From the NCBI GenBank assembly GCA_914767715.1, contig OU612069.1, positions 2,730,001 to 2,794,000 on the forward strand: DNA of 64,000 bases, given 5' to 3'. Below, in pieces: positions 4,601 through 45,700 of the stretch. This stretch comes from Membranipora membranacea (Eukaryota > Bryozoa > Gymnolaemata > Cheilostomatida > Membraniporidae). Numbering within the stretch: the first letter of the stretch is position 1; every line of letters begins with the position of its first letter. A program made the translations under genes and the position numbers. The notes under the pieces are model-generated. The model was not told the DNA's origin, searched no databases, and was given only the letters and a program-made list of their open reading frames with translations.

Positions 4601-7600
4601 CTGTAAGAAAAAAAGGATATTTTTGTATGAGAGTCAAGTTTAAGTAGCAAGCTAGCTAGCAAAAGTCTGGCTCTTTTGGCCATACCTAGTAAGTAAGCTA
4701 TTCTATTTCTGTAATGACATTCCATGTATGTTTAAACGGCAATGGCAGGCAAGGGTATCGGGTCTCCACCTCACACAAGCCACTCGAGCTTAAGGGTGTC
4801 CGTTACATAGGGTGGTCGAGTATAGCCTAGTTTAAAGAGACCTTTATAGTAAAGTATAAAACTGCTTTAATTTGAACAGTCTAACTGCCAGCTATGGGGC
4901 CTTGCCAGGCTCTTGGGAAGTGACACGAGTTGCAATTGTGTTGCAAACTTACGGTAAGATACAAAATGGTGATTAAAAGCAGATCAGAACATCAAAACAA
5001 ACTGGATTTTTCAGTTGTCAGTTCTATAATGTGACAATTACCTCGTTATCGACATCCTGGTATATCTTGTGTGCACAGCTGCCGTAGAGCTGTACACTGT
5101 TAGCCGTATGCTGTCGAGGGCTGGGTAGAGATTTAGGTAAAGGTTTAAAGTAGAACGCTAGCTTCTTCTGTGTACGATCTGATATACCGTTAATGTAAGC
5201 TTTAGGTCTCTTTGTGCGGAATATTTTACTATGCACTTTATCCTGCAGAGCCTATAAAATATCATTTAATCATTATTGCCAACAAGACTAGAGAGTAAAG
5301 AGGGATTTGGTCAACTTTCAGGGAAATAAATTGGGTTAAGATATAGTGGAAATTTAATGATTGTGAAGATATCTGAAGAAATTTCACCCTCAAAAGATAG
5401 ATACAACATACAGTGGTGTGCGCGTACCACTGCACAACACACAGGTCTTCAGCTAGAAGCCATGAGTCAAGCGCTGTTTCGAGGCCTTCTCTAGTACAAC
5501 TTCCTCATGGCCGGCCCAGCAGCAAGAAGCCACTACTTAGACCCTCTAACATCCTGCAGCAGCAAGCATACTTAGTATATGGGTCCAACCACTGAGGTCT
5601 GTCGACAACTTCTTGATAAAATGTGTTTTTTTTTTCTTGATGGAGGATATTGCATATCTGACAATAACAGACTGAGTAGAATCCCTTTCAAAATTATGGC
5701 GGAGATAAGCTACTCAACCTAGTAGCAAATGTATACCTTATAGGTTTTCAAGGGGATGTATATATACATACCTTGCTGATTCTCCAGGGGTTACTGGGGT
5801 GTATATATACATACCTTGCTGATTCTCCAGGGGTTACTGGGATGTATATATACATACCTTGCTGATTTTCCAGGGGTTACAGGGGCGTATATACATACCT
5901 TGCTGATTCTCCAGGGGTTACTGGGATGTATTTCCTCTTGAGTCCTCTCAGGGAAGGTAACCCTCTCTGTGTGACTCGTTATCACAGGAGCTTCTGATTT
6001 AACACTATCACTATCTGAGTCGGAACCTGAGCTAGAAGAGGCCTCCTTATCATCCTCCGGAGCGGGGCTGTCCTCTTTATCGTCCCCACCATACTGTGAA
6101 TATAAAGGTGGATATTGTAGGCTAGCTAGAAGACTCAATACACACTAGAAACGACCTGAACATTTTCTCCCCTATGCTGAACAATGTCGCATAAATTTAA
6201 TATGATCTACAGCAAATAAAAATGACATAACTTTTTCAGGATTTTCTCTTCATTCAAATTATAAACAATCACTGAAATGCTATGGTTGAACTAAGCCTAT
6301 CTATGTTAGCTGCCAAGAGGGCCTGTGTGCCAGTGTACTAGGGTATGCCGCCAACATAACTAACAATGACAAGACATGTCAAATCTTAAGGTACAATCAA
6401 GAGCCCCTACGGAAAAACAAAAGAAGATAATTCGGTAAATACAATTCAAAATTATCTCCCCACTTGACTCACATGACTGAAGCTCCAGAGGCGAGGGTTA
6501 TCGTATATAGTCTCGCTATGATTAGCGTCTACCACTATACTCAGGTCACCTGGTGAGAGGTTCATACTGTCTATAACTAGCAGCTGCTTATTAAACACCT
6601 CCTGTCTGGTCTTATAGAAGCGTCGCCTCTCCTTCTCTCGTTTAGATATCATATAACACAGATTACGTACCTGTCATAGTCAAACAGAAACATTATATTA
6701 ATATATATTATTATGATATACTATAAAAGATATCATATAGATGAAATTATATTATTATATATTGTCCTATTTATTATTATTATATTTTATTTGTCCATTC
6801 GTGCTCATATAGACGTAATATAATACATGGCCTGCTCAGGCTGCTTAGGGTAGGGACAGGTGCCACAGTAAAGGAATCCTTTTAGTCTAGATTGATGAGT
6901 CCTCAATTCAAACAAATCTGCTAGAGAACAGTATTACAGTATTGGTGCGTATATTAAAAACTTAAACCATTTATACCACAATCAAGTTTCATGGTTATGC
7001 ATGAGTGAGCTGTTGGCAAAAAGATAGTTTTGTCAATGGAACAAAAGTGGAGGCTGTGATATTTAAGGACACAATGATTTAGGATTAGTAGAACAGAGAA
7101 TGTGTTAGTTAATGCTGAGCGTTACCCGATATATATAACTAAAAAGAACTGACCCAAACTTGAATTTTCACAATGATTTTTTATCAGTCTACAAGCAAGC
7201 AACAAACACAAAGAGATTTGATCTAGAGGGATAAAAGAAGATACCCTAGGGGAGCGAAGGGATCCAAGGAGGAAAAGTTTTTTAACTCGCCCATCCCCGA
7301 AAGAGCTATTTTGAAGGTTAGCTAACATTAACTCACCATCTTTATTTTATATAGACGCTCACCTAAGCTAGCCAATATTTAGCGCTAAGTAAAATCTAGG
7401 CACCCTCAAACTAGGCAAGCTAAACTCTTGCTAATATCGACTCCTCTAGAGTCGAACTTAAAGAAAAACTAGGCCTATAGTTCTTTATTCCTGACATTTG
7501 TTGTCTTGATGGCTACCCTATTTGATGGCTCTTTAAAAGCTCAGGTAGTTTGTGTGGTGGTGCAGAGAATGAAAAAAGTGTGCGATAAAGTAGATATATT

Positions 7601-42700: not shown

Positions 42701-45700
42701 GTCAGTAAAATGTAGATCAGTGTGACCTGCAAAGGCTTCTCCAATCACAGGTCAGGTAAATGTAAATCAGTGTGACATACAAAGGCTACTCCAACCACAG
42801 GTCAGTTAAATGTAAATCAGTGTGACATACAAAGGCTTCTCCAATCACAGGTCAGTAGAATGTAAACCAGTGTGACATACAAAGGCTACTCCAATCACAG
42901 GTCAGGTAAATGTAAATTAGTGTGACATACAAAGGCTACTCCAATCACAGGTCAGTAAAATGTAAATCAGTGCGACATACAAAATTGCACGATCTTCAAC
43001 TTGATTTGATGGGAATCTGATAATGCTGACCACGTACGGAATGAGACTCTTTAATTAGGAGTGTTTGAAAATTTGTTGTTGATTTGATGGTCCCTTTGAG
43101 ATAATTGATTTATAATTTAAAAAGAATATTATAAAACTGACCCATCAACTTCCCTCCATCTACGTCTCAACACAACATAGCATTTCTTTTTGCTAGGTAT
43201 TCATATCTGTTGACTTTTTTCATAGAGTTGTCTCTTCACTTTTCCGTTCTCTCTTTTTCGCGATAGAAACATAGTCATGTCATGTGGAAAGGGCACTATG
43301 AATTTGCTTCCTCAGCTTACGTCTTGTTGTTGCTTTCTTACTGCAATTAAATCTATTACTTCTTTGAATATGTCGGTTCATGTTTCTCTCTTTTTATCAT
43401 AACAGAAACATAGCCACATACTATGGAGCGTTTATTAAGAAGCAGCCTAAAGACGACCAGCTATGGCTGGTTATGGAGTACTGTGGAGCTGGATCTGTCA
43501 CTGATCTGATCAAATCTAGTAAAGGAAACACCCTCAAAGAAGAATGGATAGCTTATATCTGTAGGGAGATCCTTAGGGTATGTATACTGCTTCTGTGGCT
43601 CTCGCTGTTCTTAGTTTGACCTTGATACACTTAACGCCACGTCACCAGGTTGACTGTTTAGGATAAAAAAAATCATTTTATAAAAAATACCTTTTGGTTT
43701 AGGTGGCCAATGTGGCCAATGATATTGGAAAACTTGAGTTGGCTTTGTGGCATATTTTTGACATATCCTGTTTTATCTTGGTACTGTCATTACAAAAATT
43801 AGTATTATTATCTAGCCAGCGGAAGATGTAGACTTCCACTAATGGATAAATTTTGCTCCTGATTGACCAATCCCTGGGCTTTGATGACTTCCTTCCGTGC
43901 TGCTGTTTTGGTACTTGATCTAATTGTCGTAATTGCCTCTGCCAGGTCATCTTGTTCCACGATTAGATGCCAACTTCCTGCTTGGGTGGTCAGCTGTAAA
44001 CATGTGTACGTGCCCTCGGTCGTACCAGTAGTGCTATACGACGTTATTTGGTGTGGGTGATAAACGGACTACTGTAGGGTCTAGGATGTTTGCCAAATAA
44101 TGGAAATACCAAGGTTAAGATAATATGGCTATATACATGCTCTCCGGTCAGTTTTCTCCAGTTTACCCAAACCACAAAACAAGAGAACATACAAGACATC
44201 AAAAAATGGCCGGTACAATTAATTTATATCCTACAATAGTTACAATAAGATAATATATAATATAGTTTACCCCTTACACAATACATATTATTCATTTTAG
44301 GGGTTGTCTCACTTACATGCTAGTAAAGTCATCCACAGAGATATAAAAGGTCAGAATGTTCTCCTAACAGACAACGCAGAAGTCAAACTAGGTAAGTCAG
44401 CCATATATTTACTCACACACTCACTCACTCACTCACTCACTCACTCACTCACTCACTCACTCACTCACTCACTCACTCACTCTGTCACTAGTCTGTACTC
44501 GTGCTAAGCCCCTGAGAATACACTACTGGATTAATAGGCCTGCTGTTATCAGTATTCAGAACCATAATAAGCTCAACTTAGGAATGGAAAATATTGTCTC
44601 TTATGGAATCTGCAAGTTTGATGTCACGAGATTGTCGTGTTGCCGCTCTTTTACCATCTATGCACTGTTGTTGATGTGTCCAAGGCCTATGAGCCTACGA
44701 GAACCTTGAGCGATTTAACCAGCAAATATGTAAACCGTAAAGTCTTAACCGCTCATACCTCCCATTGTCATAATTACGTCATATATGTGTCCTCTATATG
44801 TCATATTTACGTCATATATGTGTCCTCTATATGTCATATTTACGTCATATATGTGTCCTCTATATGTCATAGGTATGTTTTTAAACATAATATGTATACC
44901 TTGATGTATCCTTATGTTTCATCGTAACTATATATCATATTATGTTTTGTATTTTAGTTGATTTTGGAGTATCCGCCCAGCTGGATCGCACTATAGGGAG
45001 ACGTAATACTTTTATCGGTACTCCTTACTGGATGGCCCCGGAGGTTATAGCTTGTGATGAGAATCCGGACGCTACCTACGATAACAGGAGCGATCTCTGG
45101 AGTCTGGGTATCACCGCTCTCGAGATGGCAGAGGGGAAACCACGTAAGTCATGACCTAAACATGTTGTGGTGTGTGGCGGATAAGGGTTGAAGTGATAGG
45201 TAGTGTCATCTACAGACTTGAAATAAATTGTATATTTGCTGACAGTGTGCTCTCTAAATCTAGCTTCTGAAAGCTTTCTTACTGTTTATATACTAGGAAG
45301 GAGTAAGGATAATAGCAGTTTGAAAAAAGAAATTAGAAATAGGGAAATATATGGCCAGTTTACATTTACTCATTGCTTTAGTTAACCTGCCACCGTTGCT
45401 AATGAAAATAGGTAATAGCTAATATAATCCCCAGACTAGATAAACTGAACTGTAGCTGATCGGTAGGGCCCGCAGTGGCCGATGCTTGACATCGACTTAT
45501 ATTGTTTTTCTATTTTTGTAGCGCTATGCGATATGCACCCTATGAGAGCTCTATTCTTAATTCCAAGAAATCCACCTCCAAATCTCAGGCAGCCCAGGAA
45601 ATGGTAAGGAAATTCATTGAACTGCTGGTAATTCACACAATTTTCATCTAATATGCACAGATGTTACTGGCCTACATGATAATATTAATTGCAAATTAGA

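Follow-up and report, generated by a model that had tools for sequence, protein, structure and literature searches.

Tandem arrays spanning splice donors in the bryozoan Membranipora membranacea and their likeness to the 'mirage' repeats of amphioxus

Tandem repeats that cross exon-intron boundaries were described in amphioxus as 'mirages', in Adh3 and in the globin genes BflGb6 and BflGb9, with units of 10-72 bp in the former and of ~150-160 bp in the globins (PMC3087553). They are reported to be harmless to splicing (PMC3087553, PMC3902484), the repeats of lancelet PGBD5 have been likened to them (PMC3902484), and they were proposed as raw material for intron gain (PMC3087553). This article describes arrays of the same kind in Membranipora membranacea, taking as case study a window of 64,000 nucleotides (the whole stretch analyzed, C5:2730001-2794000 of an assembly of 339,339,785 bases) in which an exon end together with its 5' splice site is copied in tandem into the intron at four places: two in a JADE gene, one in TMEM165 and one in a MINK/TNIK-type kinase gene (Table 1). 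Four donor arrays in these three genes had been proposed by a previous reading of the letters alone (hereafter the sequence-only reading), and all of them were found where it had placed them, each straddling a donor and spreading into the intron.

As in amphioxus, the repeated unit comprises part of the exon, the splice site and part of the intron, its length varies, and many copies keep their splice signals. Units spanning the exon-intron boundary occur in the four window arrays, whose exons are defined by homology or frame, and in 13 of 18 clusters fetched from elsewhere in the genome, whose exons are defined by an open frame; all of these 17 arrays consist of several similar copies with a unit length that differs from locus to locus. 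By their defining feature the Membranipora arrays are therefore mirages in another phylum, and theirs is not the first sighting of such repeats. In amphioxus, however, both boundaries are duplicated, whereas the window shows donors only (none of 33 acceptors); the hosts belong to Cephalochordata and Bryozoa, respectively, and somatic as well as allelic length changes are reported in amphioxus. Tandem duplication of AG|GT segments is also the step by which new introns reportedly arise in the model of Rogers and in the potato RdRp and Drosophila cases; the duplication is common to both situations, but there a new intron is reportedly made and in Membranipora a known intron is lengthened. Vertebrate subtelomeric minisatellites resemble the Membranipora arrays in their distal clustering and concerted copies, and they are not known to be tied to splice donors. 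As to bryozoan tandem repeats and splicing, only one paper, on the Notch pathway, appeared among the literature matches listed, a coverage that excludes most subscription papers. The comparison extends a lancelet repeat class to a second phylum, with a chromosome-scale long-read genome where many cases could be counted, and brings two old questions within reach of a test: whether tandem duplication of AG|GT is a source of intron gain, and by what means the first among equal donors is chosen by the spliceosome. There are implications for gene finding as well: the genome note suggests that 'particular gene structures' may depress the BUSCO score (PMC10290214).

Gene models in the window were obtained with a protein-to-genome spliced aligner run against homologues, and weaker exons were filled in by frame and splice-site score. 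They contain 34 donors and 33 acceptors, in place of the ~42 introns counted in the sequence-only reading. Joined exons remain without a stop in JADE (12 exons, 585 codons), the kinase (8 exons, 361 codons) and TMEM165 (4 exons, 176 codons), and the donor that opens each array is thus identified as that of the real exon. In trees of JADE and of the kinase, the window sequence has no settled place and a long branch. It is scarcely credible that the arrays are an artefact of assembly or of gene modeling: repeats are often collapsed or expanded in assemblies, but copies of these arrays differ among themselves and the first donors were set by protein homology and open transcripts. The assembly is moreover a long-read one, built from HiFi reads at 66-fold coverage, and its genome note names a second haplotype (GCA_914767555.1) and an RNA-Seq set (ERR6464929; PMC10290214).

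Table 1. Donor-spanning arrays of the window and the exons from which they extend (window positions).
Feature	Position	Strand	Details
JADE late exon (exon 13 of the sequence-only reading)	5899..6093	-	donor AAG|GTATGT after 5899; frame and splice-site scores, open joined transcript
JADE late-exon array	5753..5931	-	unit 43, 4.2 copies; spacing 41, 43, 43 nt; exon share ~33 nt
JADE exon 6 (PHD finger)	12677..12858	-	donor CCAA|GTAAGT after 12677; homology model
JADE exon 6 array	12318..12743	-	unit 84, 5 copies; spacing 83 to 88 nt; exon share ~67 nt
TMEM165 exon 2	19963..20131	+	donor GTCAG|GTGAGA after 20131; homology model
TMEM165 exon 2 degenerate array	20125..20412	+	four copies at +0, +95, +166, +271 (71 to 105 nt apart); exon share ~7 nt
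MINK/TNIK-type kinase exon 3	42585..42700	+	donor CACAG|GTCAGT after 42700; homology model
Kinase exon 3 array	42687..42983	+	unit 50, 5.9 copies; exon share 12 nt

The association of arrays with donors was evaluated by a tandem score, defined as the best ungapped match of a boundary to a copy located 12 to 399 nt away. Scores of at least 14 were obtained for 4 of 34 donors (24.5 to 114.5), with every copy on the intron side, and for none of 33 acceptors; the fifth-best boundary is an acceptor (12.5), and the next donors reach 7.5. The TMEM165 array is the weakest of the four (24.5) and is not reported as such by Tandem Repeats Finder. As a control, 2.5% of 4782 non-exonic positions attain a score of 18, and these very arrays contain the majority of such positions. 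The difference between donors and acceptors in the window (one-sided Fisher P = 0.06) renders a restriction to donors suggestive. When 11 tandem arrays of the window were placed at random, exon overlap being permitted only at an exon end, a mean of 0.27 donor-spanning and 0.26 acceptor-spanning arrays resulted, with a probability of 0.0002 for four or more donors, a post hoc value that is too small because this very feature had guided the choice of the window.

Units of the 17 exon-linked arrays measure 22 to 95 nt, with exon shares of ~3 to 67 nt (those of the late JADE exon, ~33, and of cluster L055, ~13, derive from alignment score or reading by eye, owing to indels) and 2 to 27 copies per array within the stretches examined. 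Compared with one another, they share no more than 12 to 16 bases, in three pairs of loci that were found via the same donor motif; in a search limited to the window, no unit had a match (E 0.001) beyond its own array. A single mobile element or introner was rejected as the source, as none of the 17 units is shared beyond the donor motif and both units and exon shares differ; in this respect the sequence-only reading, which had discarded one mobile element, was borne out. The variation of units and exon shares between loci points to many independent duplications.

The downstream copies provide information on whether the additional donors are of any use to the cell. GT is present in 19 of 19 window copies, in agreement with the sequence-only reading; copies were located via a motif that contains GT, which matters for TMEM165, and in the other three arrays their number equals the Tandem Repeats Finder count. 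Over 13 arrays, the retention of GT amounts to 0.979, compared with 0.966 for all unit sites (~6 losses observed versus 10 expected), a difference biased upward in that 10 of the 13 were fetched by a donor motif, the kinase array being read at its true donor. Copies lacking GT occur in two of the 13, both outside the window, and the chance of zero loss in the three window arrays tested is 0.31, so that extra conservation of donor copies gave no clear sign among these arrays. Both JADE arrays have downstream donors that score identically to the first one, and those of the kinase score 11.1 or 7.6 compared with 11.1 for the first (3 of 5 equal it). In TMEM165 the downstream scores are 10.4, 7.8 and 6.7 versus 10.5, the third and fourth donors being weaker. 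Selection of extra donors, either as a buffer of the splice site, as the sequence-only reading had contemplated, or as a means to recruit the U1 small nuclear ribonucleoprotein and thus raise output or block early polyadenylation, would account for the intact GTs of the window and for the equal scores in JADE and the kinase; given the retention values, the copies devoid of GT and the weaker TMEM165 donors, we consider it very improbable.

Use of a later donor would mostly break the frame: a stop follows immediately when the intron is read after JADE exon 6, and one is reached within 22 nt for the kinase and within 62 nt for TMEM165. The sole downstream option that is open and in frame is the third donor (+84) in the array of the late JADE exon. 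Since downstream donors often score alike, the first donor, if used (and for part of the mRNA the protein demands it), presumably gains from its link to the whole exon. The explanation that we favor, and regard as probable though far from certain, is that the arrays are 'mirage'-type minisatellites originated by duplication across the 3' end of an exon, silent by virtue of splicing at the first donor and commonest in distal regions. By the presumed mutational route, a local tandem duplication would capture the last exonic bases along with the start of the intron. Being alone joined to the whole exon, the first donor would remain in use, and as long as it does the extra copies would be spliced out and the duplication would be silent; duplications spanning an acceptor or internal to an exon would more often reach the mRNA, which would constitute a selective filter. 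From two copies on, slippage, unequal exchange or gene conversion might add and homogenize copies, and this growth would take place mostly in the distal few Mb of chromosomes.

The occurrence of paired donors was explored over the whole genome by searching for CAGGTRAGT followed by another CAGGTRAGT after 30 to 60 bases, with the reversed motif as control. Pairs numbered 328 versus 15 and single sites 8910 versus 4443, that is, 3.7% of donor-motif sites are paired compared with 0.34% of reversed ones (~11-fold), and for AAGGTATGT the pairs were 119 versus 29; matches within an array lack independence, and short-unit satellites account for part of them. One 20-base satellite makes up 50 of the 100 listed AAGGTATGT matches. 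A satellite of 20 bases with AAGGTATGT in many units was observed on the minus strand at C1:617815-619083. As only 2 of the 34 window donors fit either search motif, the true total of donor arrays may, by extrapolation, be several-fold higher.

The 18 fetched clusters correspond to 12 of 20 listed for CAGGTRAGT, picked by the author for longer units, and 6 of 10 listed for AAGGTATGT; six short-unit satellites (L029-L040 come from two of them), C4:340591 and C4:4921517 were left out of the former set. In 13 of them the array starts where an open frame reaches its 3' end; of the others, L042 and L045 run past the end of the stretch and L051, L052 and L056 are not exon-linked. Among the array-linked frames, two gave Pfam matches above the cut-off (L046, WD40, 1.2e-9; L058, MFS, 2.8e-10) and three below it (L044, CTP synthase, 0.011; L050, amino acid kinase, 0.031; L055, RING, 0.009), and 8 of the 13 peptides had no Pfam match. 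An exon finder, trained and checked on the window itself (29 of 31 exact among 38 predictions at threshold 20, an accuracy that applies to the window), supports the first donor as the exon end at 6 of the 13 loci, at one of them (L043) with a poor coding score. At L055 (C4:3084900-3085450, continuing to ~C4:3086472) the exon with the weak RING match, which we take to be RNF5/RNF185-like, precedes a donor-spanning array that has a 39-base unit and exceeds 1 kb. On the gene strand of L051 (C3:34823000-34823800), 8.1 copies of a 47-base unit stop ~14 nt short of a predicted exon start, the acceptor being excluded, and a second array lies further along.

Regarding chromosome position, the nearest chromosome end is no more than 3.5 Mb away for 15 of 18 longer-unit clusters on C1 to C4, compared with 18 of 78 kinase loci (Fisher 3.2e-6). 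These figures cover C1 to C4 only, among the matches listed (which reach early C5); the split between long and short units is post hoc, with C1:21586872 counted as long despite a base unit of 19, and neighboring clusters may lack independence, C4:331453 and 340591, for instance, being alike in sequence.

Several observations weigh against the explanation favored above. First-donor use is a prediction from gene models and frames. The fetched clusters contain donors by construction, as they come from a motif search, and were selected by the author; in the 7 of 13 where the exon finder disagrees, it ends the exon one copy later (L048, L058) or elsewhere (L050), or predicts no exon (L041, L047, L049, L054). 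The distal trend has kinase loci as its sole control. In a 200-kb sample drawn at random over the contigs, with C5, C7, C9, C10 and C11 represented by shortened extents and C8 left out, no intron-side donor array was detected at 104 predicted exons (threshold 20) or 63 (threshold 25) except one coding repeat. No intron-side acceptor array was found there either among the 104 exons, one acceptor having exon-side copies in a coding repeat. The sample contains too few exons for a genome-wide rate; the rate in the window is above it (P = 0.003 or 0.014), likely because clusters concentrate distally and the sample lies mostly further in (16 of 20 stretches are more than 3.5 Mb from an end, the window 2.73 Mb). 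Finally, the excess of donor arrays over the intron background of the window is left unexplained by the selective filter: the filter alone predicts 0.27 and the window has four, hence exon ends must also be favored in birth or in persistence.

Favored birth would mean a mutational process at exon ends, in which breakage linked to transcription or splicing, pausing or template switching duplicates donors more than other intron sites. Such a process, which we hold to be rather improbable, would fit the window excess, the ~11-fold paired-motif rate per site and the lack of acceptor arrays; however, the motif matches are not independent, one array supplying many of them, the left breakpoints are scattered between ~3 and 67 nt inside the exon rather than fixed, and arrays that lasted longer through being anchored on a conserved exon would give a similar picture. 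Persistence rather than birth supposes that the exon copy, under purifying selection, re-homogenizes its neighbors and keeps exon-anchored arrays recognizable for longer than free intron arrays; the mean site identity to consensus of 0.953 to 1.0 in 13 arrays is consistent with it, and still we judge it unlikely. A broader proposal, that exon 3' ends are a mutational target where a donor-directed process, strongest distally and independent of that of amphioxus, has seeded hundreds or more of minisatellites and still yields cryptic donors, exon extensions and possibly introns, appears to us a minority possibility that deserves mention. Taken as a whole, the interpretation put forward in the sequence-only reading is partly supported.

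Other features were noticed as well. An Rfam scan of the window at gathering score returned a single tRNA and nothing else, a tRNA-Thr (anticodon AGT) at 8646-8720 on the minus strand, within JADE between two modeled exons. An intron of the kinase gene carries a 33-base unit repeated 3.2 times (window 44766-44871) that stops ~87 nt before the acceptor at 44958, the acceptor being excluded. Kinase matches were also observed on a 21-kb contig (C13:18627-19484 and C13:4859-5625) with several in-frame TAG/TAA codons, perhaps a contaminant with another genetic code.

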